A stretch of DNA of 64,000 nt from Neocallimastix lanati (nom. inval.) (taxonomy: Eukaryota > Neocallimastigomycota > Neocallimastigomycetes > Neocallimastigales > Neocallimastigaceae): contig JACVTC010000021.1 of the NCBI GenBank assembly GCA_016946835.1, forward strand, positions 1,082,501 to 1,146,500. Direction: 5' to 3'. The notes under the pieces were generated by a model that was not told the DNA's origin, searched no databases, and saw only the letters and a program-made list of their open reading frames with translations. The stretch's first letter is position 1; every line of letters starts with the position of its first letter. This document shows positions 5,858 through 34,617 of this stretch, piece after piece. Position numbers and translations under genes: made by a program.

Positions 5858-5896
<39 letters not shown>

Positions 5897-10410: not shown

Positions 10411-11308
10411 GACTTTTTGGAATATATTTCTTTTTTATTTTTTTCCATAATCTTATTTAATTGAGGGCAATAGTATGAGTAATGACCTTCTTCCTTACAG
10501 AAGAAGCAAGTTTTAACAGATAAATTTCTCATTTTCTGGGTTGATTCTTCTATAATATCTTGAGGTTTCAGTTTATTATTTGTTTGACTTGTTTGGAAAG
10601 TTTCGTTTCTTCTTTTAGGATAAAGTCTTGAAGTAGTACTGTTTTGATTATTTTGATTATGCTGGGAATTATTAACATTATAGGTATTAATATTATTGTT
10701 CCTTACAGAAAGTCTATCTACTTTCTCGGCAATTTTGAAAGCTTTCTCCATACTTATATCATCTTTAAGGGATAATTTCTTCCAGGCTTCATAATTATTT
10801 TGAATAGAATCAATATAATCTAGTACACCAATGCGCTTTCTTCTCTTTTATCAAGTTTAGTGTACAAAGTTCTATATCTTACATTAAAGTCTTTAATCTT
10901 TTCGTTTCTTTTAATTCGCATTGCACGAAGTTCTTTAAGAAGTAAATTTTGGTCTTCTTTAATACCGTAAAAATTTTCAAGACTTGAAATAATTTTTCCA
11001 AGAGAAGGAAATTTAATATCATCATCAACATTTTCTTCTTCATCATCTTCTTCTTCTTCATCTGATGAATCATCACTTTCATCATCACTATCTTCTCCCA
11101 AATCTTCAATAACGCGTTGTACTTCACCAGAGCTGGTAAGTAAACAAGCATTAAATATTGTTTCTGGATCTGTAATACCTTGTATCTTGATCCAAAGTTT
11201 TAATTCAGTAGCCCAGGACTTAATATCTAAATTGTCCTTGCTAAGTTTCACAATATCTCTTAATTCTTTTTTCAATTCTTTAAAGCTCAAAGTTGTTTCC
11301 TTGGACAT
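10398..11308 (-). pseudogene. gag: Element A gag (broken, about one break)
   Basis: N-terminal capsid-like region (LSFKELKKELRDIVKLS, then LDIKSWATELKLWIK), a Glu/Asp-rich stretch, a conserved block FPSLGKIISSLENFYG and a C-terminal zinc knuckle (CFFCKEEGHYSYYC). Order and motifs match B gag (28764-29681), F gag and fossil M. It ends at the frameshift signal before pol. Confidence 0.85.
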
Positions 11309-11459: not shown

Positions 11460-11705
11460 TAGATATAAGCTCGAAATCCTTATCGACAACTTAGTAGAAA
11501 TTATAAAGCACGAGGTTCTTTTCGACTACTTTATTAAGAATAATTTTTAAGTTCGAAATCTATATCGACAACTTAATAGAATAATTTTTAAGTTCGAAAT
11601 CTTTATCGACAACTCAATAGAATAATTTTAAGTTCGAAATCTTTATCGACAACTTAATAGAATATTTTTCAAGCTCGAAATCTTTATCGACCACTTGAAT
11701 TTTGT
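11460..11705 (-). repeat. About 41-bp tandem repeat in the 5' leader of A
   Basis: The word TTCGAAATC(T/C)TTATCGACAA recurs at 11552, 11593, 11633 and 11675, with weaker units at 11471 and about 11512: six units of 40-42 bp. B has nothing like it in the same place. Confidence 0.8.
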
Positions 11706-11870
11706 AATTTAGTATATTTGTAGTAATAAATTTAGAAGCAAAGTTTTATTTATTATTTTCACCTTTCAAAAAATTTTTCTTTTTAAACGATAAATATTGT
11801 ATTATTATAGCTAATAAAATTATTAATTAATTATAATTATTAAATACAAAAAAAATAATCTTTATTGTCG

Positions 11871-12028
11871 TACAATCTGATAGTACACACTGTCTGACGT
11901 GCAGCTTACCTAATGGTGTCATGCCACGCGTGTGCCACGATTACTATATTCAATATAAAATATAGCAGTTCAGAGCCCACTAGCCCAATTACTATGTAGG
12001 ATAAACTTAATCCGATAATCTATGTACG
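11871..12028. ncRNA. Conserved structured leader domain, copy in A
   Basis: GC-richer than everything around it and alignable with 29838-30001 (B) and 19657-19836 (C). The outer stem is CGTACA/TGTACG (11871-11876 with 12023-12028). An inner hairpin is CTATATT/AATATAG (11944-11950 with 11959-11965). Both stems change in a pair-keeping way in B and C. Near-invariant blocks include GCAGCTTACC, GTGTCATG, CCACGCG, CAGAGC and GATAAACTTAA. Function and sense strand are unknown. Confidence 0.75.
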
Positions 12029-12701
12029 GAATAAAAAAAATTTTAAAAGTATTCAATAATATTTTTATTAACTAATAAAAATTAACTAAAAACACAATAT
12101 TTTCAAAGTAAATTAAGATTCTTTTACAGGAATTATTAAACAAATAAAGTATCAGTAATAAAAAAAAATAAAAAAAATTTAAATGGTGAAGTTAGCCAAA
12201 GTCTGATACTTTATATAATAAAGTGCCTTATAACTAGCACAAAGAAAAATAAAAAAAATATAAAAAAAAAACAATCTTACGCCTTCGGTGACGTAAGCTC
12301 CTTATTCGCCAATGCTTGGAAAGTACCCGCACCTTCGTGTGTTGAAACGTTGAAGGCTGAACTATTATTACCGGGTCGGTAACCAAATACCTTCGTCTAC
12401 TTTCCAATTAATTCCCAAAATAACTATTATCCAATAACCTACTATGAATAATAGATATTTTGTTGTTTTCTGGAAATACACTGTGTATGAGCTCTATCCG
12501 CTCCTTGTTATAATTTTACAAGATTTGTTTTTTTTTAGAATCTTAATTTTATTTATTTTAAAAAAATTTTTTTTTTTTATATATATATATCAAACAAGCG
12601 CCATAGGTTAATCAAAGGATTAACGACTTACTTGTTTATCAATATAAAATAAAAAAAAATTAAAAAAAATCTATGTTATTTACTATTATTTCTATTTAAT
12701 T

Positions 12702-12718
12702 CCCCGATATCTCCACCA
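12702..12718 (-). other. Primer binding site of element A
   Basis: The minus strand reads TGGTGGAGATATCGGGG, 6 nt from the 5' LTR, identical to B. The primer tRNA was not identified. Confidence 0.75.
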
Positions 12719-12724
12719 TATAAA

Positions 12725-13027
12725 TGTTAAGGTTTTAGAGAATTAAATAAAAATAAAGTAAAGAAACACAAATTTTATTTTTTTATTTATTATTTTTATT
12801 TATAAATTTATTTGATTTTATTCGATGATTTTTTAAAAATTGGTAGCAAAATTTACAACTATTTATACTTTTTTTCAAGGCATAAAAATTGTTCTTGCCA
12901 CTAAATTACATTTTATTTATTTTTTTTTTTTTATAAAAACTATTAAATTTAAATTGAATTTTATAATCAATTATATAAATTTTAATTATAACAATATAAA
13001 TAAAATACATTTATAATATTAATAAAA

Positions 13028-13073
<46 letters not shown>

Positions 13074-13562
13074 AATATCTAAAATATTACTAATAAGAAT
13101 TTATTTAATTGGCTATAAATATTTTATTACAATCTGTTAAAATATTCAAATAAAAATAAAAATACTATTCTAATATAAAGGTTTTTAATAAAATAAAATA
13201 TTTTTCAATATAAAATAAAACATTTCGATATAAAATTTTATAATAAAAGTTAAAATATAATATATAAATTTTTAATCATCAATATATAAAAATATTATTA
13301 ATACAAATTTTCATTATTAATATAAAAATAAAAAAATAAGATTTATTATTAATATTGCTAATATAAGTTTTAAATATATAAAAATATTACTATTAATATA
13401 AGATTTAATATAAAAATATAAAGTTTAATATAATTTTTGATTTAATTTTTGATCTTTGGATTTAAAAATTTATTAAAGTACAAAAATAATAATGTACACA
13501 TAATGTATTAGAAATAAATCGTAGATTTAATTAAGAATGCATTATTTAGTACATTCTTATCA
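12725..13562 (-). repeat. 5' LTR of element A
   Basis: Starts TGTTAAGG and ends CTTATCA. It has a long T-run (about 48) at 13030-13066 and a minus-strand TATAAATAG box near 12860. Confidence 0.9.
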
Positions 13563-13565
13563 CAG

Positions 13566-14495
13566 TGTAAAGAATAATAATTAATTTTTATTAAAATAAA
13601 AAATAATTATTAATCTTTATTAAAATAAAAAATAATTATTAATCTTTATTAAATAAAATAATAATTATTTAATAAAATTTATTAACTTTATTATAAAATA
13701 TTTTTAATATAAAATTATTATTAATAATTTAAAATTAATATTGTAAAATTATTATTCTTTATCATTGTATTAATTAATAATATTAAAATAATTAAACATT
13801 AATATTTTTTATATTTGTTAAAATTCATTTGATAATTATATGTTAAGTTTTAATTTAAATAATTGTTACATTAATATAATTTTAAACAAATCTAATATAA
13901 ATTATAGAATTATAATTTAGAAATAATTATAAAATTATATTAAAATCATAATGTAACAAATCAAATGAAAAAAGAATAATTAATATTTAAAAAATTAATT
14001 AAAATAAAACAATGTCATGTATAATTGACATTGTTTAAATAAAACAAATGTTAATTGAAGTTTTCCGATTTGAAAATATCGGTTTTTATTCAATTAACAT
14101 ATGATCAATTTTATTAATAATTGATCATTAAACTTTTTAGGTTTTTCTCCCAAATCTTTTCCTAAAAAGTTATTCATTAAGATTTGGAACTTTACTATAA
14201 ATAATTCTTGATTTTCTTTATTTTGAAAATCAAGAGTTATTATTATAAGAATATAATTATAATAATAAACAAAATAAATTTTTAATTTTTTAAAAATAAC
14301 AAAAATCTAAATAAAAATTATTTTTAATAAAAAATATTTTAATAAAAATTTTATTTGAACTAATCTCTTATAATAAACTCCTACCCTATTTTAAGTTTCG
14401 TTAAGTATTTTCTTTTTTTTTAATTTCTCGATTAATATTAGTATTAATTGTAGAAAAGGGTTAAATTTAATTAAGTTTAAATTTAATTCTTTACA
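13566..14495. mobile_element. Solo LTR H (930 bp), rich in hairpins
   Basis: Ends TGTAAAGAAT...ATTCTTTACA are inverted repeats, flanked on both sides by CACAG (13561-13565 and 14496-14500). No coding sequence. From 14009 to 14234 it is a chain of near-perfect hairpins: 14048-14059/14089-14100, 14101-14110/14119-14128, 14131-14141/14161-14171 and 14207-14216/14225-14234. The third one overlaps a second pairing (14150-14158 with 14179-14187), giving a possible pseudoknot. Confidence 0.75.
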
Positions 14496-14500
14496 CACAG

Positions 14501-15499
14501 TGTAATAATTTAATTAAAAAATTATAATTAAATTATTAATCATTAATATTAGCTCTAACTGCTAATATTAAAGGTTTAGAAAAGAATCATACTTACCTAT
14601 GGTTCTTTCTAATTATCGAGTTTATTATAACGAATTATAATAGACGAAACACTAAAATTGATAAGGAAAAGTTTTAATTATAAAATTTGTTTTATTAAAA
14701 TAATTTGTTTTATTATTTATTAAAAATTTTAAATGTTAAAACTTATTGTTATTATTATTATATTATAATTGTTATAATAATAACTCTTGATTTCTCAAAG
14801 AGAACTCAAGAGCCTTATTTATACTTTTTTGTCAAAATAAGGTTAAAATCAAAAGGGGTTCTAATCTTAACAAATCTCTTATCTAGGAAAAGACTAGAAG
14901 AAAAACCTAGATAAGTTTTTTGATCGATATTCTATCCATATCGATCATCGCGTTAATTAAGTAAAACCGATTACTTTTAAGAAGTAATTGGAAAAACCTT
15001 AATTAACCAATTACTTAATCTAATATAATGATCGAAAATAAAAGAATAAAATAATGAAAATTATTTCGATCATAAAATTTAAAATTTAATCTATTTAGTT
15101 CTATTTTATAGAACTTTACATAAAAAATATAAAACAATACATTAATAATAAAATACATGATTAATACAATACAGAATACATGATAGAATACAGAATACAT
15201 GATAAAATACAGAATAGTGTTTTAGTTTATGATTTAATAAGTGAGAGAAAACTAAAACTAATAAATTTAATAATTAAGTGAATAATTAAATAAATTTAAT
15301 ATTATTTTAAATGTATAAAAATTATTTGATTAAATAAATTTTTAATATTAAACTAAATAAAATTTTAATATATAATTAAATAAATTATTAATTATAATTA
15401 ATTGTATAAATGAAATATGAGTTAAATAAAAGTTATATTAATTATAACCTAACTAAGAAAATATAATTATTTTGTTAAAAATAATTATAGATTCTTACA
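14501..15499 (-). repeat. 3' LTR of element C (999 bp), a chain of stem-loops
   Basis: Perfect or near-perfect inverted repeats follow one another: 14576-14612, 14784-14812, 14878-14887/14906-14915, 14921-14930/14938-14947, 14952-14961/14998-15007 (with 14967-14976/14982-14991 nested inside), and 15029-15072. The predicted TATA box and transcript start lie among them. Confidence 0.88.
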
Positions 15500-15508
15500 T
15501 TGCTCCCT

Positions 15509-18500
15509 TTATGGTGATGGTTCCTTTAATCCTATGTCTCTTTCAGTATAAGGCTCCAACTGCGAGATATGAAATACCGGGTGTAAATGAAGATTTTCTG
15601 GTAATTCAAGCCGGTAGTTCATTCTTTCCCTCACTTCTATGACCTTAAAGGGTCCAAGATACTGGTTAGAAAGCTTTTTTGCAGGTTCATTGGAGAAGTA
15701 ATACCTTTTCAACCAAACCATGTCGTTAACATGGAAAGTAGGACCAGAAGCTTTCCTAGAGTCACCAAACTTTTTGAAATCTTCTTTAGCTTTGATAAGG
15801 TGCTTTTTAAGGGCATCAAAATGGGCAGACCAATCCCTAGTAAGTACAGAGGCATTATCTTTTAAAAGAACAGGAGGAGAGTCAATATTGCATACTGGAT
15901 TAAAACCATAATTTGCACAGAAAGGCGACATGTTTATAGATTTGTGAAATTAGTTGTTATAAGCCATTTCACAAAGAGGTAGATAAAAGCACCATTCATT
16001 TTGGGCAGTAGAACAGTAGCATCGTAAATATTGTTCGATTACGGAATTAGCCCTTTCGACTTGACCATTTGTTTGTTGGTGATGAGCAGTAGCGAGTCTT
16101 GGCTTAGTATTTAGAGCTGAGCAGAGTGAGGTCCAAAATTCAGAAGAGAACTGGGAGCCATGATCAGAGACAATGATTTTAGGGAATCCATGATACCGAA
16201 AAACGTTGTAAAGGAGCATCTTGGCGGTCAGGTCAGCGGAAGGGACGTCGGAGCAAGGAACTAAATGGATCATCTTTGTTAAGTGATCCGAAACCACCAT
16301 AATACATGTGCAATCTTGTGAACTAGGTAACGAAACTATAAAATCAACCTCAATAATTTCCCATGGTTTATTGGGAACAGGCAACGGTTGAATTTTTCCG
16401 TAGGGTTTATGTCTACGAATTTTACACCTAGCACAAGTTGAACAAGAAAGTACATAATTATGAATATCTTTCTTCATATTAGGCCACCAGTAGTATCTCT
16501 TGATTTTATCAAGAGTTTTGTCAATACCTTGGTGTCCGTTGGTGGGTGAGTCATGAAAAGATTTCAAAATTCTTGCTCTTAAAGTGGATGGGACGATGAT
16601 TCTGTTTTGGAAATGTAAGACCCCTTCATTTAAAGAAAATAAAGAACTTTTAACTGTGTTTGACTTAGTTTTAATCTTTTCTAAAATAGATTTGCAATAT
16701 GTGTCAGCCGTTTGGGCATCAATCAAACTACTAATATTATCAGTGTTTGCACAACATAAGGCATTATCATCCAATAAAGGACGGTCTTTGTTGTGGAGGG
16801 AAACCACGGAATTATAATCCGGACGTCTCGACGACGAATCTGGTTCATTACTCCTTGATCCACAAAATTTGTCAGTCGGTTGGGTATCAATCAAGCTACT
16901 GATAATAGTGTTTGCACAACAAAAGGCATTATCATCCAATAAAGGACGGTCTTTGTTGTGGAGGGAAACCACGGATTTATAATCCGGACGTCTCGACAAC
17001 GAATCTGGTTTACCACACCTTGATCCAGGTCTGAACGAAATCCTAAAGTCAAACTTAGAAAGAAAGAGGCTCCATCTTATCTGGCGTTGGTTTAAATGTT
17101 GAGGCTTTTTAAAATATAATAAATTCCTGTGATCGGTAATGATTTGAACAGGAAACTTAGCCCCTTCAAGGTGGTGACGCCAGGTTTCAAAAGTGGTGAT
17201 AATAGCGAGTAGTTCCTTGTCATATATTGTATAATTTAATTCAGAAGATGACAAAGACCTAGAATGAAAAGCGACAGGGTGAAGTTCGTTATCCTTGTCA
17301 CTGATTTGAGAAAGAATGCAACCCACAGCAAAATCACTGGCATCAGTTTCAACAGTGAATTCCTTATCTGGATCGGGGTAGATAAGGATTTCGTCTGTGG
17401 TAAAAGCAAGTTTTAATTTTTTGAAGGCATTCTCAGCATCATCATTCCATTTGAACTCGTTATTCTTCTTGAGGAGTATTCTTAAGGGTTCCATAATTAT
17501 GGCGAAATTCTTTATGAATTTCCTATAGTAGTTACAGAGTCCGAGGAAACTTTGAAGTTCATTCATGTTTTTTGGAGTAGGCCATTCAAGAATTGATTTT
17601 ACTTTGTTTTTATCCATAGAAAGGCCATTTATTGATACAACAAACCCTAAAAAAGTAGTTTCAGGAACGTGAAATTCACATTTTTCTAGTTTTACATAGA
17701 GACCATTTTTGACTAATAAGGAAAGGACATGATGAACATGTTTAATATGTTCAGTAAGGTTTTTCGAATATATTATAATGTCATCTAAGTAGACAAAGAG
17801 AAACAAGCCAATATCATCAGAAAAAATGTCTTGGATAAAGCGTTGAAAAACCGAAGGTGCATTACGTAAACCAAAAGGCATTACACGGTATTCAAAATGA
17901 CCAAAAGGAGTACGAAAAGCAGTAAGGTATTCATGGCCTTTCTTGACACGAACTAAGTTATAGGCAGATCTTAAGTCAAGCCGAGAGAAAATAATAGCAC
18001 CTTTAAATGATTCTATCAAATCAGATATCCTAGGAATTGGATAACTGTTTCTAATGGTGATAGAATTGAGCTTTCTATAGTCAACACAAAGTCTAAAAGA
18101 AGCGTCATGTTTTTTAACAAATAGCACTGGAGCACCAGCAGAAGATTTTTTAATTATTTCTTCATTTCTGTTAGAATCCTTCATTTTACTATCTTGAATT
18201 AAAACAGCACAGATATCCATATCGCTTAATTCGTCTTCAGAAATGGAATCAGGAATTATAGAATCAAGAGAAGTTTCTCCCTTATGTTCAGATTCAGTAC
18301 TGGGTAAGAGAGAAGCAGTAATATCTGATGAATGGAAAACAAACTTATTACCCTTAGCGGAAGGACAATGACTAAAACAGTGAGATTCCAAGAAATAGAT
18401 TTTATTATTCTTATAGTCAATGTAAGGAGAATGAAGATTTAACCAATCTCTTCCAAGGATTGCTAAAATGTCCTGAAGTTGGAGATTTGCGATAAAGAAT

Positions 18501-19510
18501 TCAAACATTTCAGTATGGTCCATAAAAGTAAGTTTAAGTCTCTTTGTAACTTGCCTTATGGCCATATTCTTCTCGTTAGGAAGTTTTACATTGATCGTAT
18601 TTGAGAGGTTTGAATAAGGAATTTTGTTTGCTGTTACGAAGCTTTTGCAGAGATAACTTCTAGCAGAGCCCGAGTCAATAAGGATTCTGGTTTTAATCTT
18701 TTTGTTATTAACGGTCAACAAGAAAGTTGTAGTCATTTTATTATTATGACTTGGGGTGTAATTTGCTGATAAAATACTTCCATTGTCTCGTCCCTTATGG
18801 TGCTTATTGCGTTTAAATTTGTTTTCGGTCATGTTAGTTTCGTTTCTTTTTCGTTTGAAAGATTTACTACTCTTTGGCTTGTAGTCATTGGTCTTTACTT
18901 TTTGCTTAAGTAAACATTTTCTATCAATATTGATAATAGAATTTGTTGCCTCAAATAAACTTTTAGGTTTGTCTAATTTATTGAACTCTGTTTTAACATC
19001 CTCAAGAAGACCTCTTTTGATTAGGTCAATGAATACATCGTCCGGCCATCCAATACGTCCAGCTAACCTTCGAAATTCAATAGTATATAATGCGGCTCTT
19101 CCTAAATGAAGTTGTTTTAAGTTTAGAAGTTGTTCAATAAGAATATCCTTCTGTTCTTTAGTATCCCCAAAATTACTTATCAAAATATCTTTAAAGGTGT
19201 CATAGCTTAACGAATTTAAAGTCCCATCAGCCTTCAATGAAAGTCCCCATTTCTTTGGAGGTCCATGTAACATGCTGATAACATAAGAAATTTTTAAGTC
19301 GTCCGTGGAAAAAGAGTTGGGATGTTTTTTAAAAAACAATTCACTCTGTTCCAGGAGCTCATTAACGTTAAGTTTGTTGTTATCAGCTAAGTTCTTGGAT
19401 AACACTCCGTTGGCGGAAAAGAAGGTAGGAATAAATTCTGTTAAAGCTGTTATAAGCTTTGAGGATTCAACTTCACTTGGAATTTGGGCGTTATTACTAT
19501 TGGATTCCAT
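15509..19510 (-). pseudogene. gag-pol: Element C gag-pol polyprotein (broken, about one break)
   Basis: The start at 19510 (MESNSNNAQ) opens a retrotransposon gag domain (LHGPPKKWGL, LNLKQLHLGRAALYTIEFRRL) and a basic Lys/Arg tract with no CCHC knuckle. Next come protease (LIDSGSARSYL, about residue 281), RT with YLDD near 573, RNase H (ETDASDFAVG, DKELLAI, TDHRNL), integrase HHCC (about 990-1030) and DDE (VDFIVSLP, VSDHGSQF, GQVERAN). The C-terminus reads YLGPFKVIE...LHPVFHISQLEP, the chromointegrase-type tail of the Tf1/sushi clade. A 55-residue linker between RNase H and integrase is tandemly duplicated (spacing 165 bp, about 16700-17030). It is a different clade from A, B and G. Confidence 0.88.
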
Positions 19511-19656
19511 TTTTACCTAAATTATAAATTATATTAACTATGAAATATATATATATGTTTATTATGATTATAAGGTCATAGTTAGGAAGTTTTGGCGAAA
19601 GAAAACAGTTGAATAAGAAAATACTCAAGCATTTCCAGACGATTTTCCAGAAGCAC

Positions 19657-19836
19657 GTTAGCAGTAAACAGTAGTATGTACTTAATGACGGGAGCAGCTT
19701 GCCTATTACTGGTGTCATGTTCCCGCGTACACCACGATTGCAACCTACCACACATCGGATAGGCCAGTCCAGAGCTGCCCAGATCGCTGCCTGTGACAGA
19801 TAAACTTAATCCGGAAACTGTTACCTAGATGCTAAC
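19657..19836. ncRNA. Conserved structured leader domain, copy in C
   Basis: Outer stem GTTAGCA/TGCTAAC (19657-19663 with 19830-19836) replaces the A and B stems with different but still paired bases. The inner hairpin is CCTACC/GATAGG (19744-19749 with 19758-19763). Shared blocks GCAGCTTGCC, GGTGTCATG, CACCACGATT, CAGTCCAGAGC and ATAAACTTAATCCGG align to A and B. It sits between the gag start and the 5' LTR. Confidence 0.75.
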
Positions 19837-19979
19837 ACACTTCTGCTTCTAAGATCTGTACTAAGTCTTGGTTCTTCTATATTGTTTCCTTGGCCTACTT
19901 CTTCCAGTTCTATTTCCCTAAAATCATGTAAACATATGTTAGTGTATTTATGTGTTCTTATTATTGTTATTATTTATTT

Positions 19980-20240
19980 TATTATTGCTATTTATTGTTG
20001 TTTAATTTTTTTTATTATTTATCATTTATCATTTATCATTTATCATTTATTATTTACTATCATTATTTATTATTATTTATTATTATTTATTATTATTTAT
20101 TATTATTTATTATTATTTATTATTATTTATTATTATTTATTATTATTTATTATTATTTATTATTTATTATTATTTATTATTATTTATTATTATTTATTAT
20201 TTATTATTATTTATTATTATTTATTATTATTTATTACTAT
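19980..20240. repeat. TTATTATTTA microsatellite in leader of C
   Basis: Nearly pure 10-bp units (TATTATTTAT) with some 7-bp variants. It lies between the structured domain and the 5' LTR, so it would be part of the element transcript. The long frames over it are low-complexity artefacts. Confidence 0.9.
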
Positions 20241-20608
20241 ATATCTATTCTTTTAATTTTTTATGATTTTAATTATTTATCCAACTAATTATTACTATTT
20301 ACTTATTTTTTAATATTTAATTTATGTTTTATATTAATTTATTCTTATAATTTCTATACTAAATTATTAATTAATGATTTTTGATCTGATTTACTAATAT
20401 TATCTACTTATATTTTAATATTTAATTTATTTACTATATATTAATTTATTTTTTTAATTTCTAGATTATTCTATATAATTTATATTATTTTATTTATTAT
20501 TAATCATAAAAATTTTTATTGTACTACACTAAATTATTTTGTACTACTTGATTCTAGAAATTAATTATATTATTAAATTAATTAACTATTCTATTAAACT
20601 ATACTAAG

Positions 20609-20620
20609 AAGAGTTATTAT
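20609..20620 (-). other. Self-priming primer site of element C
   Basis: Directly against the 5' LTR, where a tRNA-type site would be, the minus strand reads ATAATAACTCTT. This is an exact 12-nt reverse complement of AAGAGTTATTAT inside the LTR (plus coordinates 20897-20908). Tf1/sushi elements prime reverse transcription with the first bases of their own transcript, which predicts a transcript start at 20908. A TATAAATA box lies about 35 nt before it. Confidence 0.7.
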
Positions 20621-22276
20621 TGTAATAATTTAATTAAAAAATTATAATTAAATTATTAATCATTAATATTAGCTCTAACTGCTAATATTAAAGGTTTAGA
20701 AAAGAATCATACTTACCTATGGTTCTTTCTAATTATCGAGTTTATTATAACGAATTATAATAGACGAAACACTAAAATTGATAAGGAAAAGTTTTAATTA
20801 TAAAATTTGTTTTATTAAAATAATTTGTTTTATTATTTATTAAAAATTTTAAATGTTAAAACTTATTGTTATTATTATTATATTATAATTGTTATAATAA
20901 TAACTCTTGATTTCTCAAAGAGAACTCAAGAGCCTTATTTATACTTTTTTGTCAAAATAAGGTTAAAATCAAAAGGGGTTCTAATCTTAGCAAATCTCTT
21001 ATCTAGGAAAAGACTAGAAGAAAAACCTAGATAAGTTTTTTGATCGATATTCTATCCATATCGATCATCGCGTTAATTAAGTAAAACCGATTACTTTTAA
21101 GAAGTAATTGGAAAAACCTTAATTAACCAATTACTTAATCTAATATAATGATCGAAAATAAAAGAATAAAATAATGAAAATTATTTCGATCATAAAATTT
21201 AAAATTTAATCTATTTAGTTCTATTTTATAGAACTTTACATAAAAAATATAAAACAATACATTAATAATAAAATACATGATTAATACAATACAGAATACA
21301 TGATAGAATACAGAATACATGATAAAATACAGAATAGTGTTTTAGTTTATGATTTAATAAGTGAGAGAAAACTAAAACTAATAAATTTAATAATTAAGTG
21401 AATAATTAAATAAATTTAATATTATTTTAAATGTATAAAAATTATTTAATTAAATAAATTTTTAATATTAAACTAAATAAAATTTTAATATATAATTAAA
21501 TAAATTATTAATTATAATTAATTGTATAAATGAAATATGAGTTAAATAAAAGTTATATTAATTATAACCTAACTATGTCAAAGTTTTAAGATAATTTGGT
21601 CTTAACGATTAGGTCAAGATGCCAAATTATAGTAATTAATTAATAATTTAATTTTACTCTTATTTAAACATATTGTTATTAGTAAATTTTATAATTAAGT
21701 TTTTTATTTAAAATATAAATTTTATTTAATCTTAATAATATTTTATTACATTATTATTTTATATAATTATTACTATAATTTAAATTACAATAATCCTACA
21801 AAGGATTAATCAAAAGATTTAAACATGTATTTATATAAAATAATTAATTATTAAAATATTAATTATTAATATGTAATAGTATTAATATAAGTTTGATATT
21901 GATAATATAAAATAAGATAATAATATAAATATTTAATATAAATAAAATATAAGAATTAAATATTGCTAAATATTATAATTTATAATTAAAATATAATATG
22001 TAGAAATTAATTTAATATGACAATCACGTGTTTACATTATTTAATATATATTAAATTCAATATGTTAATAATATTTAGTAATTAGTTGGCCTAGACTAAT
22101 TCCTAAATATTTTAATAAAGTTAATTTAATAATAATTATTATATTATTATTATTTATTAATATTGAAATTCAAATAACTGAATTATCGAAATTGAAATTG
22201 AATTGAAATTCAGTTATTATCTTAACAAACTAAGAAAATATAATTATTTTGTTAAAAATAATTATAGATTCTTACA
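20621..22276 (-). repeat. 5' LTR of element C, interrupted by solo LTR I
   Basis: 20621-21575 and 22233-22276 match the left LTR; 21576-22227 is foreign. The predicted promoter (TATAAATA, near 20940) and the predicted start (20908) lie on the element-body side of the insertion. Confidence 0.88.
21576..22227 (-). mobile_element. Solo LTR I (652 bp) inserted in the 5' LTR of C
   Basis: TGTCAAAG...CTTAACA flanked by AACTA on both sides (21571-21575 and 22228-22232). The uninterrupted copy of the site is in the left LTR near 15455. A minus-strand TATAAATA box lies near 21829. Younger than C. Confidence 0.88.
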
Positions 22277-22282
22277 CACAGT

Positions 22283-22939
22283 TGGTACAAGACTTTTCAT
22301 TTATTTATTTTCAATAATAATATATTCTAATTAATTCTAATTAAACTTATTTATTTATTTCCGAATTTATCTAAATTAATTAAACTCAACATTAATATTC
22401 TAACTAATGTTTTTAATTATTAACTAAGCTCTCTTTTATTTTATTTTAAACCCCTTAACTAACTTAATTATTATTTAAACTTAAAACTATTATATTCACA
22501 ACACAACTTAACACTAAATTAAAACACCCTTAATTTATTTTACCTTATTTTATTCTAGAATTTAATTTATAAAATTTGAGAGAGAGTTTTTAATATTTTT
22601 TGATTTTACAAGTTATTTATAGAATTTAATGAAGTTTTTTAATTGGTTCAAATAAATTTTTAATTAATTAAAATAAAATATAAAAAATAATAAAATAATA
22701 TAAAAATAATAAAAATTAAAGTAAAAGTAAAAATAAAAATAAAAATATAAAATAAAAATAAAATATAAGATAAAAATAATATAATAAAAATTAAAATAAA
22801 AATAAAGTAAAAGTAAAAATACAAATAAAAATTTAAAATAAAAATAAAGATATAAAATAAAAATAATATAAAAAAAAATAAAAACAAATATAAAATAATA
22901 AATTCAATAATATAAGCAATATTAGATTGTTCCGTATCA
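22283..22939 (-). mobile_element. Solo LTR J (657 bp)
   Basis: TGGTACAAG...TCCGTATCA, flanked by CAGT (22279-22282 and 22940-22943). Minus-strand TATAAATAA box near 22615. Its inner half is AAAATA/AAATAT simple sequence (22660-22900), which gives a meaningless Phe/Tyr-rich frame. Confidence 0.75.
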
Positions 22940-22943
22940 CAGT

Positions 22944-23960
22944 TGGTAGACTCGGGGTTGACACTTAGATATTTAAAATCAAGCAGGGGGGACGGGTATT
23001 ACCCTGCTTTGATTTTAAATAAAAAAAAAATAATTTTTTATTAAAAGTTATTTATTTTTTTTTTATTAATATAAATTTTTTTTATTTAAAGTACACACAT
23101 TTAATTTTTAAGAAATTGTTACAATATTTATATTTTTTTATAAATTTAAAGTATAATTAATTGTTTATAATTTAAGTAATTTTATAGAATTATTGAATTA
23201 ATTTTATATCAATAATTCATTTTTGTTTTAATTTTTATAAATATAATAATATAATATTCAAATATAATTTAATTAAAAATAATTATAAAATAAATATATA
23301 GAAAATAGTTTTTACTATTTTCTTTGATATTTTTAAGTTAAATAAATTGTTTTTAAAGATTAATATAATAAATTTAATAATCTTTAATTATTTTAAATAA
23401 TACTTGTAATTATTTTCAAAATAAAATAAAATTTTTATAATATTTAATTAATAAATTTGATAATATTTAAATAATAATTTTTATAATAAGTAAAAATTTT
23501 TAATAATAATTTTTAATAATAAATTTAATTAATAATCTTAATAATTTTATAATAATATTTAATAGTTATAATAAATAAATTTTTACAATAATATTTAATA
23601 ATTTTAATAATTTTATAATATTAATAATTTATAATAATTTTTAGAATAATATTTAATTAATAATTTTAATAATTTTATAATAATTTTTATAATAATATTT
23701 AATTAATAGTTTTAATAATTTAGTATCTTAAAAGTATAATTTTAATATTTACAATTGTATTTTAATATATACATATATTTAATAATATAACAATAAAGTA
23801 ATTAATTAAAATTTATTTACATTATTTACAAGTGTAAATTAATTTATATCAAAATAAATTAAATTTACAATGAGGTTTAGGTTATGAAGAATATAGGAAA
23901 GTACAATTTAGTAAAGAATTATTAATAATAAAATAAAGGTTATTAATTCATTCTTTACCA
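22944..23960 (-). mobile_element. Solo LTR K (1017 bp)
   Basis: TGGTAGAC...TTTACCA, flanked by CAGT (22940-22943 and 23961-23964). Minus-strand TATAAATA near 23130. An unusual G-run (CAGGGGGGACGGG, 22984-22996) sits near its left end, followed by a partly complementary inverted stretch (ATTTAAAATCAAGCAGG and CCTGCTTTGATTTTAAAT). Confidence 0.75.
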
Positions 23961-23964
23961 CAGT

Positions 23965-24751
23965 TGGTATGGTTCATATAGTTTTAGGAATATAATAATA
24001 ATTAACACAAATAATTAAATTACAATAAAAAAAAATAATTTGTTTTAAAATCAATATTTATATATTTAAATTTATAAAAGAAAAATAATAATATAATTAT
24101 TTATTTAATAAAAGTAAGTTATTCATTATATTTTATTTCACTAAAATTACATGTATTTATATTTTTTTATCAAATTAAAATTTGTAAAGCCTAACTATTT
24201 TTTTAATAAACTAATTACTAATTATTTTTATAAATAAAACATTTAAATTGAAATTGAATTATTATTTTAGTTAATAATATTATTGTTATAAATAGTAGTT
24301 ATATATTATTGAATTATTAATTATTTAATAATAGTTTAATACTAATATATATAAAATAAAAATAAAGAGATTATACAGAATATTTTATTGTGGTTTAGTT
24401 AAATTTAGTAATTAAAAATAAATTTAAATTGATAACGAAAATTTTAATAACTAATTAAATAGATTTGATTATTTTCAATATAACATAATACAAAAGAAAT
24501 ATAATATTAATATATTAAGTGGGCAAGGACAATATTCTTGGCTAAAGATTTTTAATACATTATAATGGAATCGGATCGATAATTCAAAAAGGAATTATAA
24601 GTTAATTAGTGATTTATTAACTTAAGATTTCTATTTAGTAATATTTGAAGAATATTGGAAAGTTCCAATTATATAGAATAGAATAATCTATAAGGTTAGA
24701 ATAATTTATATTATTCTAGCACAATTAGTATTATTTGTTCATTCTGTATTA
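23965..24751 (-). repeat. 3' LTR of element B
   Basis: Nearly identical to 30187-30972. The minus strand has a TATAAATACATG promoter-like box near 24155, also recognisable in the LTR of fossil M. Confidence 0.92.
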
Positions 24752-24774
24752 AGATGCCCCCGCTAAGACTCAAG

Positions 24775-27700
24775 CTAGGTAGAAGCTGAGTTAAACTTGA
24801 CAATATTTTTCAAATGAACATTACGATTCATTTGTATATTAGTAGCAGGATCAGCTAAAGTGACTGTATTGAATTGTTTCTTTACCACTTTCATAGGTCC
24901 AACAAAGTAAGGTTCTAATTTAGTTCGATTAAAGTTTCTTACTAGTACTAAATCACCTGGTTTTATTCTTTTAGCTTGATTCATACTGGTCTTTTCTTCT
25001 CTCCTAGTAGCCCAATACTTCGAAGCATTTTTGATATTAGACGCGGCCTCCATTACCCATTGGTAGTGTGATACAAATTTTTCCAGTAGAATTTCGTCAG
25101 AAGACTTATTTATACCCTTAGTTGGTCTGGCAGCAATGTCAAAAGGTTGTTGGTCCTCCCTTCCATAAACTAATTCAAAGCTTGAATGGTTGGTAATTGA
25201 GTTTTTAGTAGTTCTTAAAGCCCAAAGTGCAGATGGTAAAATTTCATCCCACTCTTTGTGTTGTTTTCCTAGTAATCGTAATAATTTTCCAATTTCTTTA
25301 TTACGATTCTCAACTAAACCATTGCTTTCAGGATGATATGGAGTGATAAATTTAACATATACATCATATAAATCAAGGAAGATTTTTGTCATATCTGATG
25401 TAAATTGTGTTCCATTATCAGTAGTGATAATTTGAGGTACACCGTGTCGAGCAAATACATTAATTAAAAATTTTATCACATCCTGAGAAGTAACATTTTC
25501 AGTGGGCTCTGCCTCAACCCATTTAGTAAAATAATCAACCACAACGATTATATATTGATTATTATTTCTGGTTTTACTTAGAGGTCCTATAATGTCCAAT
25601 CCTAAGTGTGTAAATGGTCCTTCTACTTCAGTTGGTTTATCTTCCGTTGGTTCAGGGTATGGTTGAGATTTATTTAATTGACATTTTTCACATTTACCTA
25701 TAATTCGCTTAATGTCATTAACCATATTGTTCCAATAGTAGCTCATTTTCATACGTTGGTATGTCTTGTAATAGCCTTCGTGTCCTATACTGTGTGCTTG
25801 AAAAATTAATTGAAGTTTTTCTTTTGTATCTGTAACTAATTTTCTATAATTATTGCCATCAACAAAGTAGTCCACACCATCAATTGTCGTAAATTTTTCT
25901 TCAATAAATTCCTTAATGGTTCTTGAAAGCAGGTTTTCATCTTGTTCCTTGATAATTTGTGTTGTTAAGACAACTTTTTCTTTTTCATTTTTCATTCTTG
26001 ATAAAGCATCTGCGACAACATTATTCTTTCCAGTTTCATATCGTAAATCAATTCCTAACATACTGACAGTCAAACACCATCTAGTATGACGAGAATTTTG
26101 TGGTTCCTTACTTTTAAGTAATCCGATTAATGGTCTATGATCTGTATATACTATAGTTTGCTTAGGATTTCCCATAATATAAGATTTTAATTTATTAATA
26201 CAGTAAATTAGAGCAGCACCTTCTAGATCCGTAATTCCATAATTCTTTTCCGATTTAGATAAACTTCTACTAATATAATGAACCGGATGCTCCTTTCCAG
26301 TTTCATCATCCTTTTGTAAAAGCACACCGCCTATTCCATCATAGGAAGCATCTGTTCTTATAATAAATTCTCTATCAAATCTAGGAAATCTTAATATTGG
26401 GGCATTGATTAATCTTTCCTTAAGAATTTTAAAACTTTCTTCTTGTTCCTTTTTCCATTCAAACTTAATACCTTTTCTTAATAGAGTGCAGAGAGGAGCA
26501 GTAACTTTTGCAAAGTCCTTAATAAAATTTCTATAATATCCAATGGCTCCTAAAAATGATCGAAGTTCATGAATGTTAGAGGGAGCCTTCCATTCTTTAA
26601 TAGCTTCAACTTTGTTTTCCAATGGACTTAAACCTTCTGAGGATACTTTATGTCCCAGTACTTCTACTTCAGTTTGCATGAAAGAACATTTTTCAATATT
26701 GATTTTTAACTTATGTTCCTTGAATATTTCTAAGACTTGTTTAAGATGTTCTAGGTGTTCTTCTTCAGTTCTTGAGTAGATTAAAATATCATCGATAAAG
26801 TTATAGACGCATTTTCCTATTAAGGGAAATAGTATACGGTTCATTTCTCTTTGGAATGTAGCTGGAGCACCTGTTAAACCGAAGGGCATTACCTTGAATT
26901 GGTAGTTTCCGAACTTAGTTGTAAAGGTAGTGATTTCAACACTATCATCATCCATTAATATTTGATGATAACCGGAATAAAGATCTAATGTTGAGAAGAT
27001 TTTCGCTCCATCTAAGCTATCAAAAATTTCCTCAATATTTGGTAAAGAATAAGAATCCTTCTTAGTTGCTTCATTTACTTTCCTATAGTCAATACACAGG
27101 CGCCATTTACCGTTCTTTTTAGGCACAAGTACTACTGGTGATGACCATTCTGAACATGAAGGTTCAATTAATCGTTTATATATGAGTTTGGTTAATTCTT
27201 CTTTTAAGATATCTGTTTTTAATTTACTAAGTCGATAAAATTTTTGTTTAATAGGTTTAACTCCTTCCTTAAGAATAATTTTGTGTGGTGATAAATCTGA
27301 AGGTGTTAATTCTTCAGAAGAAGTTGCAATTATATCAATATATTCTTCAAGTAATTTAGTAATGGCTTCTCTATAATTTGAATTAATTGTACTTTGAAAA
27401 ACTGTGTCATATATATATTTTATGGGTGGTAATCCTTCAATCGTTTTTAATTGTTGCTTAGCTTCTTGGTGATTCAATGCCTTGATTACACATAATAATT
27501 TTTCTTCGTCATCATATTCATTATTAATAGGTGCAATTTCTTCAATTAAACCTTGATCATTAAATCGACAAAGACTATATCTAATTGGATGTATAAATAA
27601 CTGGTTATCAATTTGAGTTTTGAGGTTGATTAATATATCATAGAATGGATCCTCCTTGTCTATAATTCTACACGTAACAAGTAGTTCTAGTTCATTAATT

Positions 27701-28593
27701 TTTAAGGGAACTTTGATTAACACATCTTCTGAGTAATCATCATTCATTGTTGCTAAACGTATTCGTCCTGCACTAACTCCTATAGGTTCATACTGATAAG
27801 GTAATTTATCTAAAAATTGCTTTGTGATAATACTTAAGTTGCTACATGAATCTATTAAAGCCTTGCCACGAACTCCATCTACTATTACATCAACCATAGT
27901 AATATCATCTTCTTGTGGTTCATGATGTTTACTTTTATATGTATGATCTATATTGTTCGTTATTATTGTAGTAGCGCACATATTATCCACTGCACCTGAA
28001 ATTTTAGTATTATTCTTTTCTAATTTAAGTCCTTGTGATACTTGAGACCGTATCTTTGGAGCAACGTCCAATAATTGTCCAAATGTAATATTGCAATTAC
28101 TGGAGTTTAAATCTTTGATCACGTCATAACTATCACAATCAGTTTGCATTTGTATTCTTTTTGGAATTCTAGTTGGCATAATTTCAGTTGACTTTTCTGA
28201 TGATTTTTCTTGAATTAATTTATTTAAAGTTTGTTTAGAATTATTTCCTTCCTGAGAAGTTTCTTCATTAATAATATTAACAATACTATTTTTATTATTT
28301 TCCACAGAAGTACTAGTACTAGCTCTTTCCTTATCTCTTAGCTCTTTCTCAATCCTCTTTTCTTTCTCTATTCTGGGTTGAGCCATAATCGAAGGATGTA
28401 ATTGAGTTGTTGGCTTTTTGACTGGTCGCGATGTTCCCCTTAATTGATTTTCTTTTTGTTTTCGTAAACCTGGAGTAACTATTGGCTTAGGATCATCTCT
28501 TAGACTACGGTGAACCCTCTTTCCTCTTTGGTCACTAGTCTCTTCATCTTTAGGATTTGCCTTTCTCTTTATAACGTTTACTAAGTAATCCAA
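24775..28593 (-). CDS. pol: Element B pol polyprotein, 1272 aa open frame
   Basis: Same layout as A: basic linker; protease with LIDSCSNLSI at about 248; RT with FIDD near 601; RNase H (TDASYDG, DLEGAA, TDHRPL); integrase HHCC near 936-970; Asp-Asp-Glu in LDIIGPLS (about 1001), TTDNGTQF (about 1060) and LVENRN (about 1094); GPM/GPF-like motif near 1231; end KFNSAST. The frame is open upstream of this ATG to the gag end, consistent with gag-pol recoding. Confidence 0.95.
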   Translation of the reverse strand: MDYLVNVIKRKANPKDEETSDQRGKRVHRSLRDDPKPIVTPGLRKQKENQLRGTSRPVKKPTTQLHPSIMAQPRIEKEKRIEKELRDKERASTSTSVENNKNSIVNIINEETSQEGNNSKQTLNKLIQEKSSEKSTEIMPTRIPKRIQMQTDCDSYDVIKDLNSSNCNITFGQLLDVAPKIRSQVSQGLKLEKNNTKISGAVDNMCATTIITNNIDHTYKSKHHEPQEDDITMVDVIVDGVRGKALIDSCSNLSIITKQFLDKLPYQYEPIGVSAGRIRLATMNDDYSEDVLIKVPLKINELELLVTCRIIDKEDPFYDILINLKTQIDNQLFIHPIRYSLCRFNDQGLIEEIAPINNEYDDEEKLLCVIKALNHQEAKQQLKTIEGLPPIKYIYDTVFQSTINSNYREAITKLLEEYIDIIATSSEELTPSDLSPHKIILKEGVKPIKQKFYRLSKLKTDILKEELTKLIYKRLIEPSCSEWSSPVVLVPKKNGKWRLCIDYRKVNEATKKDSYSLPNIEEIFDSLDGAKIFSTLDLYSGYHQILMDDDSVEITTFTTKFGNYQFKVMPFGLTGAPATFQREMNRILFPLIGKCVYNFIDDILIYSRTEEEHLEHLKQVLEIFKEHKLKINIEKCSFMQTEVEVLGHKVSSEGLSPLENKVEAIKEWKAPSNIHELRSFLGAIGYYRNFIKDFAKVTAPLCTLLRKGIKFEWKKEQEESFKILKERLINAPILRFPRFDREFIIRTDASYDGIGGVLLQKDDETGKEHPVHYISRSLSKSEKNYGITDLEGAALIYCINKLKSYIMGNPKQTIVYTDHRPLIGLLKSKEPQNSRHTRWCLTVSMLGIDLRYETGKNNVVADALSRMKNEKEKVVLTTQIIKEQDENLLSRTIKEFIEEKFTTIDGVDYFVDGNNYRKLVTDTKEKLQLIFQAHSIGHEGYYKTYQRMKMSYYWNNMVNDIKRIIGKCEKCQLNKSQPYPEPTEDKPTEVEGPFTHLGLDIIGPLSKTRNNNQYIIVVVDYFTKWVEAEPTENVTSQDVIKFLINVFARHGVPQIITTDNGTQFTSDMTKIFLDLYDVYVKFITPYHPESNGLVENRNKEIGKLLRLLGKQHKEWDEILPSALWALRTTKNSITNHSSFELVYGREDQQPFDIAARPTKGINKSSDEILLEKFVSHYQWVMEAASNIKNASKYWATRREEKTSMNQAKRIKPGDLVLVRNFNRTKLEPYFVGPMKVVKKQFNTVTLADPATNIQMNRNVHLKNIVKFNSAST

Positions 28594-28743
28594 TTCTTTG
28601 GAACCATCCGACTCATCATCAAAATCTTCGTAATAATCCGTAGTAGTACCTTCTTGGAAATCAGCAGTTTCTTCATAATCATCATCTTCTTTTAAGTCAA
28701 CTGTTTTGGAACGATGGCAGAATGAAGCAATTTTTTTGACGAT

Positions 28744-28776
28744 GGGAGTGCTTCTACTCCCTTTTAGTGGTTTAAA
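28744..28776 (-). promoter_or_regulatory. -1 ribosomal frameshift signal at the gag/pol junction of B
   Basis: The minus strand shows T TTA AAC in the gag frame (28770-28776), an 8-nt spacer holding the gag stop, then a perfect 6-bp hairpin GGGAGT-AGAAGC-ACTCCC (28744-28761). Pol is in the -1 frame. The loop AGAAGC is identical in A. Confidence 0.82.
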
Positions 28777-29681
28777 TGATTTTCATAAAACTTCTTGCGG
28801 TTATTTTCCAATATAGAATTTAATTTAGGACAGTTTCGTTTGATATGTCCTTCATTGCTACAAAACCAGCAAGTACTAATTTTCATTTCTTTCATCTTGT
28901 TAGTGAGATTTTCTATAGATACATTTTTGTGGGTTTTTGGTTTGTTAAAATCATTTGAAATGTTCTTATTAAAATTACTTTTAGAGTTAAGGAGATTGTA
29001 ATGAGTCTTATCATAATATTCAGTACTATTTTTAATAGATAAACGATCAACTTTTTCGGCTATAGCGAACGCTTTGGTAATAGAAATATGGTCTTTAAGC
29101 ATAACCTTTCTCCATGCGTCAGGATTATTGGTTAAGGAATCTGCATAATCTAAAACACTAATTTTTCTTCTTCTCTTTTTATCCAATTTATGGTACAAAG
29201 ATCTATAACGGACATTAAAATCTTTAACTTTCTCGTTCTTCTTTATTTTCATGGAACGTAATTCTCGTAACAAATTGGTTTGATCTTCTTTAAGTCCATA
29301 GAAAGTCTTCAGATGATTTATGATTTCATCAAGGCTTGGGTAGGTGCTAGTAGATTCACTTTCTTCATCATCTTCTCCTTCACTATCGCTATCGAAATCA
29401 GAATCTTCATCTTCAGTAAGGTCATTTCCATCTTCTAGTTCTTGGATAATTTCTCTTGGTTCTCCAGAAGCCGTTAATATACAAGCAGTAAAAATAGTTT
29501 CAGGATCCTTGATATGTTGGTATTTTATCCATGCCTTTAACTCGTTTGCCCAGGAATTGATGTCTAGGTTTTGTTTAGTAAGCTTTTCAAAATCTTTTAA
29601 TTCTTTCTTTAATTCTCGGAAGCTAAGCTTACTTTCTGGAGTACTCTCTGTTGGAGTACTGGAAGTACTGGATGTTCTCAT
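28764..29681 (-). CDS. gag: Element B gag, 305 aa open frame
   Basis: A Ser/Thr-rich start (MRTSSTSSTPTES), LSFRELKKELKDF, LDINSWANELKAWIK, an acidic Asp/Glu/Ser stretch (about 95-120), YPSLDEIINHLKTFYGLKED, then KVKDFNVRYRSLYHKLD and a C-terminal zinc knuckle CWFCSNEGHIKRNC. It ends 3 nt before the frameshift hairpin. Capsid and nucleocapsid functions are inferred from position and the knuckle; the capsid part is a family I recognise only from A, F and M. Confidence 0.92.
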   Translation of the reverse strand: MRTSSTSSTPTESTPESKLSFRELKKELKDFEKLTKQNLDINSWANELKAWIKYQHIKDPETIFTACILTASGEPREIIQELEDGNDLTEDEDSDFDSDSEGEDDEESESTSTYPSLDEIINHLKTFYGLKEDQTNLLRELRSMKIKKNEKVKDFNVRYRSLYHKLDKKRRRKISVLDYADSLTNNPDAWRKVMLKDHISITKAFAIAEKVDRLSIKNSTEYYDKTHYNLLNSKSNFNKNISNDFNKPKTHKNVSIENLTNKMKEMKISTCWFCSNEGHIKRNCPKLNSILENNRKKFYENHLNH

Positions 29682-29837
29682 TAAATAAAATTTATTGTAT
29701 CTATAGAATGCTAAACCTCGTAATGTATAAATTGTTATAAAAAGTAAAAATAAAAAAAAATTAAAAAAAATAAATCTTTTAACTAATAAAATTATTAATT
29801 ATTTATTATTATTAATCATTTATTAAATTATAATAAT

Positions 29838-30001
29838 CGTGCAATCTGATAGTACACACTATCTGACGTGCAGCTTACCTCTTGAAAGGTGTCATGCCAC
29901 GCGTGTGCCACGGTTACTATTTTCAATATAAAAAATAGCAGTCCAGAGCCTACTAGCCCAATTACTATGTAGGATAAACTTAACCCGGAAATCTATGCAC
30001 G
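29838..30001. ncRNA. Conserved structured leader domain, copy in B
   Basis: Outer stem CGTGCA/TGCACG (29838-29843 with 29996-30001) differs from A by a compensating pair. Inner hairpin CTATTTT/AAAATAG (29917-29923 with 29932-29938). Small hairpin GATAGT/ACTATC at 29848-29863. About 80 percent alike to A by eye. It lies between the primer site and gag. Confidence 0.78.
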
Positions 30002-30161: not shown

Positions 30162-30178
30162 CCCCGATATCTCCACCA
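30162..30178 (-). other. Primer binding site of element B
   Basis: The minus strand reads TGGTGGAGATATCGGGG, 8 nt from the 5' LTR. Same site as A. Confidence 0.78.
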
Positions 30179-30186: not shown

Positions 30187-30972
30187 TGGTATGGTTCATA
30201 TAATTTTAGGAATATAATAATAATTAACACAAATAATAAAATTACAATAAAAAAAATAATTTGTTTTAAAATCAATATTTATATATTTAAATTTATAAAA
30301 GAAAAATAATAATATAATTATTTATTTAATAAAAGTAAGTTATTCATTATATTTTATTTCACTAAAATTACATGTATTTATATTTTTTTATCAAATTAAA
30401 ATTTGTAAAGCCTAACTATTTTTTTAATAAACTAATTACTAATTATTTTTATAAATAAAACATTTAAATTGAAATTGAATTATTATTTTAGTTAATAATA
30501 TTATTGTTATAAATAGTAGTTATATATTATTGAATTATTAATTATTTAATAATAGTTTAATACTAATATATATAAAATAAAAATAAAGAGATTATACAGA
30601 ATATTTTATTGTGGTTTAGTTAAATTTAGTAATTAAAAATAAATTTAAATTGATAACGAAAATTTTAATAACTAATTAAATAGATTTGATTATTTTCAAT
30701 ATAACATAATACAAAAGAAATATAATATTAATATATTAAGTGGGCAAGGACAATATTCTTGGCTAAAGATTTTTAATACATTATAATGGAATCGGATCGA
30801 TAATTCAAAAAGGAATTATAAGTTAATTAGTGATTTATTAACTTAAGATTTCTATTTAGTAATATTTGAAGAATATTGGAAAGTTCCAATAATATAGAAT
30901 AGAATAATCTATAAGGTTAGAATAATTTATATTATTCTAGCACAATTAGTATTATTTGTTCATTCTGTATTA
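30187..30972 (-). repeat. 5' LTR of element B
   Basis: Matches 23965-24751. The right edge (CTGTATTA) is followed by CAGT and then LTR F. Confidence 0.92.
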
Positions 30973-34544: not shown

Positions 34545-34617
34545 ATCCAAATAGTGTAGTGTTTATCACGTTTGCTTTACACGCAAAAGGTCTCCGGTTC
34601 GAACCCGGGTTTGGGTA
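34545..34617 (+). tRNA. tRNA-Val (TAC), variant copy
   Basis: Acceptor ATCCAAA/TTTGGGT with discriminator A, D arm GTG..CAC, anticodon arm TTTGC-TTTACAC-GCAAA (anticodon TAC), T arm TCCGG-TTCGAAC-CCGGG. B box GGTTCGAACCC is intact. The D loop has GT where copy 45143-45215 has the usual GG (position 19), which would weaken the G19-C56 contact. A T-run follows at 34626. All elements in 4072-34530 lie upstream of it. It may be a working gene of lowered quality or an early relic. Confidence 0.85.

Follow-up and report, generated by a model that had tools for sequence, protein, structure and literature searches.

A conserved folded RNA domain in the 5' leaders of eight retrotransposon families of Neocallimastix lanati

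Why would long terminal repeat (LTR) retrotransposons of two clades, with unrelated LTRs and Gag proteins, carry one and the same segment ahead of gag? The question is raised by a 64,000-nucleotide (nt) window of the Neocallimastix lanati genome (contig JACVTC010000021.1, positions 1,082,501 to 1,146,500), whose minus strand carries the LTR retrotransposons A, C and B. A sequence-only reading of this window had aligned a leader segment from each element and proposed a structured domain, common to two gypsy clades, with covarying stems. The three copies are one RNA domain, and the proposal extends beyond them: in this genome (199 Mb in 762 contigs, very AT-rich; GC content of the window 0.20), no fewer than eight families of LTR retrotransposons carry it in their 5' leaders as a conserved, folded RNA. 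Its stems have been kept while their letters changed, which indicates that the RNA shape itself matters.

One RNA domain in three elements

Searches with a covariance model (cmsearch) place all three copies on the minus strand, within a few bases of where the sequence-only reading had put them, and the sequence blocks it named are present in the alignment of A, B and C. The copies and their parts are the following.

11869..12028, minus strand: leader domain of element A, from P1 to P1' (179.7 bits; A is a row of the model)
29838..30001, minus strand: leader domain of element B (188.2 bits; B is a row of the model)
19663..19825, minus strand: inner part of the leader domain of element C (131.4 bits; C is a row of the model)
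19629..19864, minus strand: outer flanks of the C domain, with TTAGTAC and AGAAGC on the 5' side and GGAAATGC on the 3' side, read directly
11902..11923, minus strand: apical core of P4 in A, CAUGACACC / GGUAAGCUG
19695..19719, minus strand: apical core of P4 in C, CAUGACACC / GGCAAGCUG
29871..29896, minus strand: apical core of P4 in B, CAUGACACC / GGUAAGCUG

The domain spans about 160 nt and stands out by composition, with a GC content of 0.37-0.49 in A, B, C and family E against 0.10-0.25 in adjoining leader stretches. Read 5' to 3' in the sense of the element, stem P1 closes the domain. P2 (CCGGAUU/AAUCgUGG, in most cases with a single bulged G) is the closing stem of a three-way junction that includes hairpins P3 and P5. 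P3 consists of five base pairs, usually a bulged A, and four more pairs; by hand, the bulged A is found in families A, B, C, D, F and H. P4 is a long hairpin that ends in a nearly invariant bulged helix, CAnGA(C/A)RCC...GGY(A/G)AGCUG.

Paired changes in the closing and inner stems bear out the claim made for them. In C, an extra closing stem, GTTAGCA/TGCTAAC, stretches the domain to about 19657-19833. Longer closing stems and the outer flanks (UUAGUAC, AGAAGC, GGAAAUGC) are common to C, E, F, G and H and are not seen in A, B and D. Smaller variations occur too: P2 pairs poorly in family F, where P2a is left open, and in family G the tip loop exchanges its C and A together for A and G. The CA/UG and CC/GG pairs of the P4 tip are constant across all eight families, so covariation is silent on them.

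Further families, covariation and strand

Family D was found in the same genome by sequence pattern. A core pattern that excluded the usual A/B form then matched 85 places, with none for the reversed control, and these places comprise C, variants of A and B, and two new families, E and F. A covariance model built from A, B, C and D alone (R1) matches both over all 163 positions, F at an E-value of 2e-13 and E at 1.8e-9. A model of the same rows without structure finds E and F as well, at E-values of 5e-6 to 5e-5 and with 19-22.5 bits rather than the 38.5-56.7 bits obtained with structure. At two of these E and F loci, L223 and L226, structure raises the score from 21.7 to 40.7 and from 22.1 to 54.9 bits, and a third locus, L232, is found by the structural model only. 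E-values here vary with the number of bases searched. Family G, reached by BLASTN with E at 73% identity, scores 1.8e-11 (1e-10 in another search space). Family H, found in the leader of a relative of C whose Gag-Pol start is 64% identical, reaches 108.5 bits at 3e-30 with filters off and 2e-28 in another search space. The covariance model thus extends the domain within this genome to E, F, G and H, in which changes preserve the pairs; a lack of such copies would have spoken against the proposal.

The covariation was measured on several alignments. A MAFFT alignment of A-D that took no account of structure has two-sided changes in 21 of 56 pairs, against 7.7 +/- 2.0 after shuffling and 0-5 with slid partners; 96.4% of cells pair, against 29-42% when slid, a control that leans towards the structure because the structure was drawn on A-D themselves. 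With one model-aligned row for each of the eight families, two-sided changes occur in 35 of 56 pairs (shuffled 20.3 +/- 2.4, slid 5-10), the share of pairing cells is 95.3% (slid 32-40%) and the covariation score reaches 0.619 (shuffled 0.236, slid 0.06-0.09). A 15-row alignment likewise gives 35 two-sided pairs against 23.1; both of these alignments, having been fitted to the model, are biased in its favour. A hand alignment, made to fit the structure, has two-sided changes in 40 of 57 pairs (shuffled 25.2 +/- 2.7). Folded singly, with no alignment at all, E and F recover P1, P3, P5 and P4 with its tip, at -54.3 and -49.4 kcal/mol; none of 200 shuffles is as stable (z about -5). Folded as single sequences, A and B exceed the stability of shuffles by a small margin only, whichever strand is taken (z -0.8 to -1.9).

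The sequence-only reading had left the sense of the RNA open. It is most likely that of gag-pol (the element sense), to judge from pairing and computed stability. The hand alignment, which was built in element sense and favours it, holds 55 G-U and 2 A-C pairs in that sense, and 421 of its 430 cells pair against 368 in antisense. For E and F, the element sense is 10-11 kcal/mol more stable, and RNAalifold on A-D gives -79.4 against -65.2 for the other strand. Stem P6 is an exception, fitting the plus strand better (24 of 24 cells rather than 22).

Copy numbers are first-look candidates, with at most 40 scored per search: A/B have 629-630, C has 70, F has 14, and E and G together have 53. Family D was matched at two loci by pattern, whereas its LTR alone gives 552 such candidates (40 scored), so the two-locus count is probably an artefact of the pattern. 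Because the patterns demanded CATG, they missed H, and a missing pattern match in 50 distant relatives of C is therefore not an absence of the domain. Among C-like Gag matches (90 of 1988 candidates scored), 36 of 40 at 83% identity or more have a listed domain within 2.5 kb upstream, as against 0 of 50 at 64% or less; yet the H leader (64%), read directly, carries the domain although it is unlisted, which makes this test a weak one.

Several copies deserve separate mention. L265 is 88% identical to F and scores just 12.5 bits, probably as a decayed F copy. An F copy at C24:717369, where the LTR end is repeated right after the domain, had been considered as a miniature element; three other F copies are normal for 511 bases, and the locus is a rearranged copy without bearing on function. 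Family E domains recur every 7097-7100 bases, three in a row, at C223:260766-275189 and C391:2161-16581, seemingly as whole elements in tandem that share LTRs. Several A/B copies lie within a few kilobases of contig ends (for example on C85, C64, C24 and C19), which would fit a subtelomeric preference or assembly breaks in repeats.

Place in the elements and relation between clades

The domain lies in the 5' leader, between the primer-binding site and gag as read from DNA, and in A, B and C it is outside the LTRs. The surrounding parts of the three elements are these.

12725..13562, minus strand: 5' LTR of element A; partner LTR at 5552-6381, 98.0% identical
12702..12718, minus strand: putative primer-binding site of element A, TGGTGGAGATATCGGGG, about 6 nt past the 5' LTR
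10820..11308, minus strand: gag open reading frame (ORF) of element A, broken, 560 nt downstream of the domain
6400..10215, minus strand: pol ORF of element A (Pfam)
30187..30972, minus strand: 5' LTR of element B; partner LTR at 23965-24751, 99.5% identical
30162..30178, minus strand: putative primer-binding site of element B, the same 17 nt as in A (TGGTGGAGATATCGGGG)
28764..29681, minus strand: gag ORF of element B (zf-CCHC), 156 nt downstream of the domain
24775..28593, minus strand: pol ORF of element B, 65% identical to the A pol
20621..21575, minus strand: 5' LTR of element C; partner LTR at 14501-15455, 99.8% identical
15950..19510, minus strand: gag-pol ORF of element C (Ty3_capsid, RVP_2, reverse transcriptase, RNase H, integrase), 152 nt past the inner domain

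The gag ORF of A breaks after 162 codons, and a similar protein seems to resume in another frame. Gag follows the domain on the same strand at 81 of 84 loci, these being 88 loci less four chance pattern matches (L082-L084 and L086). Most of them are near-identical copies of A, B or C and hence not independent. The three misses are a locus at a contig end (L017) and two D loci (L087, L088) with no gag in 1434 nt. Family D had for this reason been taken as non-autonomous, a view that was dropped when its gag was found further downstream, about 2127 nt past the domain and behind nine AUGs (L087). The core-to-gag distance is about 170-200 nt in B and C loci. In E, represented here by L243, gag lies 704 nt downstream. 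Between domain and gag there are no AUGs in the 560 nt of A, one in the 156 nt of B, two in C (144 nt, from the outer stem) and three in E. The 17-nt primer-binding-site motif is present in A, B, D, E and F, and the domain follows it. Since the D domain lies 57 nt from this site yet about 2127 nt from gag, it appears tied to the end of the genomic RNA, not to gag initiation.

Other leader features accompany the domain. Tandem units lie between domain and gag in A (41-nt unit, 5.7 copies, window 11466-11696) and E (55-nt unit, 4.3 copies, L243 2446-2680), and D has four similar units by motif, for which the repeat finder TRF made no call (L266 about 444-615, minus-strand reading). Their sequences differ and each looks hairpin-like by eye, which may point to a second leader module made of repeats. 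The leaders of A (window about 12270-12500), D (L087 about 1850-2100, minus-strand reading) and F (L245) also contain further islands of higher GC content, possibly structured, and so does L268, at about 100-260, a distant relative of C whose leader lacks the domain over the stretch read. The island of A has no Rfam match at E<=1.

The sequence-only reading had called the LTRs and proteins of C unrelated to those of A and B. This stands for LTR and Gag: BLASTN finds no match longer than 25 nt between C and A/B over LTR and leader, the LTRs having just 20-25 nt matches, and BLASTP gives no Gag match at E<=1. By Pfam, the C Gag is a Ty3_capsid and the B Gag a zinc-knuckle protein. It does not stand for Pol, since A, B and C alike have reverse transcriptase, RNase H and integrase domains (Pfam), and the C Pol, of Ty3/gypsy type, is 40% identical to that of B over reverse transcriptase and RNase H. 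Among the six families whose proteins were compared, A, B, D and E form one gypsy clade and C and H another; Gag identity to B is 58% for A, 50% for D and 59% for E.

The relatedness of the domain conflicts with that of the proteins. Identity among the A, B and D domains is 84-92%; to these three, C and H stand at 61-69% and E, F and G at 52-59%. The E domain is just 52-53% identical to this group though its Gag is 59% identical to that of B, and the C domain is closer (61-69%) though its Gag cannot be aligned with the B Gag. This conflict suggests exchange of the domain between clades; unequal rates would fit too. A tree of the eight domain sequences has weak support of 34-60, except for E with G at 99.

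Known RNAs and candidate functions

The fold was compared with Rfam 15 (4227 families), a match being a covariance score at or above the gathering threshold, with H (L267) outside these searches. Rfam reports only three tRNAs on the window, all outside the domain. Searching the A region at E<=10 gives three matches, the best with an E-value of 2.5 and 13.4 bits against a threshold of 75, and the rest of the A leader matches no known RNA family in Rfam either. Four loci (L223, L226, L235, L236) searched at E<=5 give one match, CRISPR-DR25 at 2.8, below threshold, and five more (L087, L245, L244, L243, L261) give none at threshold. Rfam contains hammerhead, hepatitis delta virus (HDV)-like and twister families, and in these searches the domain fits neither their consensus nor that of another self-cleaving ribozyme; no tRNA or 5S match reaches threshold. 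The known-family match that would have spoken against a new domain was thus not found in Rfam.

Viral contigs gave nothing similar among the loci examined. A pattern search yielded at least 147 loci, with no relatives among those examined; the covariance model on 39 of the 147 gave a single match at an E-value of 0.5, nhmmer with A-D on 134 gave 0.51 at best, and Pol searches of the viral contigs found no relatives. Pol relatives exist in metagenomes, where those of B are many, and in Orpinomyces: one relative of the B Pol, at 72% identity, carries the label Orpsp1_1, which we take to denote that anaerobic gut fungus. No description of such a domain was among the results of literature searches. 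The fold, the depth of covariation and the sharing across clades are therefore new as far as tested, while leader RNA signals themselves are of a known kind.

What might the domain do? By analogy with known leaders, it would be a cis-acting element of the genomic RNA, and encapsidation or dimerisation, as by a psi-like signal, is its leading, if tentative, role, ranked ahead of host-factor and translation roles. The structured 5' ends of Ty1, Ty3 and HIV-1 hold sequences for tRNA annealing, dimerisation, cyclisation and packaging (PMC11381356). As there, the domain is folded RNA near the genomic-RNA 5' end, around or after the primer-binding site, in the element-sense leader position, read from DNA, that such a signal requires. 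A signal of the genomic RNA would agree with the closeness of the D domain to the primer-binding site and with a scaffold that covaries beneath a fixed tip. The domain would mark full-length RNA for the particle, with P1-P5 as a scaffold free to change in pairs that presents the fixed P4 tip and the P2/P3 junction to a protein partner, and a transfer from one clade to the other could have come about through template switching between RNAs packaged together.

Several observations weigh against packaging. The domain, which reaches threshold for no Rfam family in fold or core, is unlike the retroviral and Ty1/Ty3 leaders in being common to two clades whose Gags are unrelated, and a Gag-specific signal should not be portable between such Gags, which favours a host partner. 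Element C has no primer-binding-site motif, and no CCHC knuckle in Pfam at E<=0.001. The distance from primer-binding site to domain varies from 57 nt in D to about 160 in B and about 670 in A. A more distant C relative (L268, 54%) lacks the domain in the 429 nt before gag. A conserved palindromic kissing loop was not seen, judged by eye alone; CACGCGTG lies within P4 of A and B and is absent in E, F and G, likewise by eye.

A host protein could account for the sharing. The domain would then be a constitutive-export, retention or stability element, comparable to the constitutive transport element of simple retroviruses, and would work beside unrelated Gags and LTRs for that reason. The fixed P4 tip on a freely covarying scaffold resembles a protein-binding site, and the variable distances to gag and to the primer-binding site agree with such a role. 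No Rfam 15 family at threshold and no tie to a particular host protein support it, however, and it is rather unlikely. A wider version, in which a portable RNA module absent from Rfam moves horizontally between LTR-retrotransposon clades independently of LTRs and Gag by way of a host factor, is possible though doubtful; if true, unrelated elements share one RNA "plug-in".

Translation control of gag is an unlikely function in turn. Here the domain would be an internal ribosome entry site (IRES), or an obstacle for ribosome shunting, that lets ribosomes reach gag past a long leader. A structured leader before gag recalls the IRESs of LTR retrotransposons and retroviruses (PMC10974842, PMC3319624), activity having been reported for other LTR-element RNAs (PMC10974842), and the domain does precede gag at nearly all loci, at short and similar distances in B and C. 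AUG is the most depleted of the 64 trinucleotides in the A, B and E leaders combined (6 against 24.1 expected), so these leaders look scanned, a point in favour of translation control that also argues against an IRES as their only route. The shortage of AUG extends to the stretch upstream of the domain (2 against 12.2), where an IRES would not need it, and is absent from C leaders (10 against 11.1). CAT is likewise underrepresented (18 against 34.5); downstream alone its depletion (10 against 24.3) exceeds that of AUG (4 against 12.6), so composition may contribute. The distant gag of family D, behind its nine AUGs, speaks against gag-proximal action, and it weakens the IRES among the roles that the sequence-only reading had listed. 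A conserved AUG or upstream ORF of the core was set aside, the core AUG being lost in H (CAAGACACC).

The remaining candidates are improbable. AG|GYAAGC at the P4 tip could serve as a 5' splice site under regulation, so that gag mRNA loses the rest of the leader and unspliced RNA is genomic. AGGYAAGC occurs in seven of the eight families, with GU or GC (G has AGGCGAGC), and splicing would explain how the D gag is reached across 2.1 kb, but a GC donor would be required in four families (C, D, E, G), and the Y tends to pair with the A/G of RCC (A-U or G-C; an A-C mismatch in C and E). No acceptor was identified in a search limited to one leader read by eye. A self-cleaving ribozyme or other catalytic RNA is compatible with the size, the two stacked junctions and the invariant tip; it would have to be of a new fold, since no known ribozyme family in Rfam matches, and a cut between primer-binding site and gag would sever the genomic RNA of elements that have tens to hundreds of first-look copies. 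There is as little to recommend an antisense or RNA polymerase III-derived small RNA from the plus strand, a role that was also on the earlier list and has lost support: both strands fold, the antisense folds of E and F beating all 200 shuffles (z -3.0 and -4.1), and P6 fits the plus strand, but the G-U excess, in an alignment made in element sense, favours that sense, and no small RNA in Rfam matches at threshold.

Other LTR elements with structured RNA differ in where they carry it. Retrozymes are non-autonomous LTR elements with hammerhead ribozymes (PMC4918200, PMC9695139); they too have a defined structured RNA, but theirs is in the LTR, whereas this domain is internal, before gag, in coding elements, and no hammerhead by Rfam. 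Cassandra, Helenus and Ajax are terminal-repeat retrotransposons in miniature (TRIMs) with 5S rRNA- or tRNA-like parts (PMC10886601). They likewise carry a structured segment, which in these elements (TRIMp3) is LTR-borne and derived from RNA polymerase III genes, in contrast to the internal domain.

To our knowledge, deep covariation is rare in leader RNAs. With eight diverged families of one such RNA in a single genome, evolution has set apart a constant core from a variable scaffold, in a module common to clades whose other parts are unrelated. The set makes the role of such a leader structure directly testable. This matters since even yeast LTR retrotransposons have poorly defined cis-acting RNA signals, the packaging sequences of Ty1 and Ty3 being described as not precisely defined (PMC4974528).

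Elsewhere in the window, two tRNA-Val(TAC) genes of equal score lie on opposite strands, at 34545-34617 and 45143-45215.

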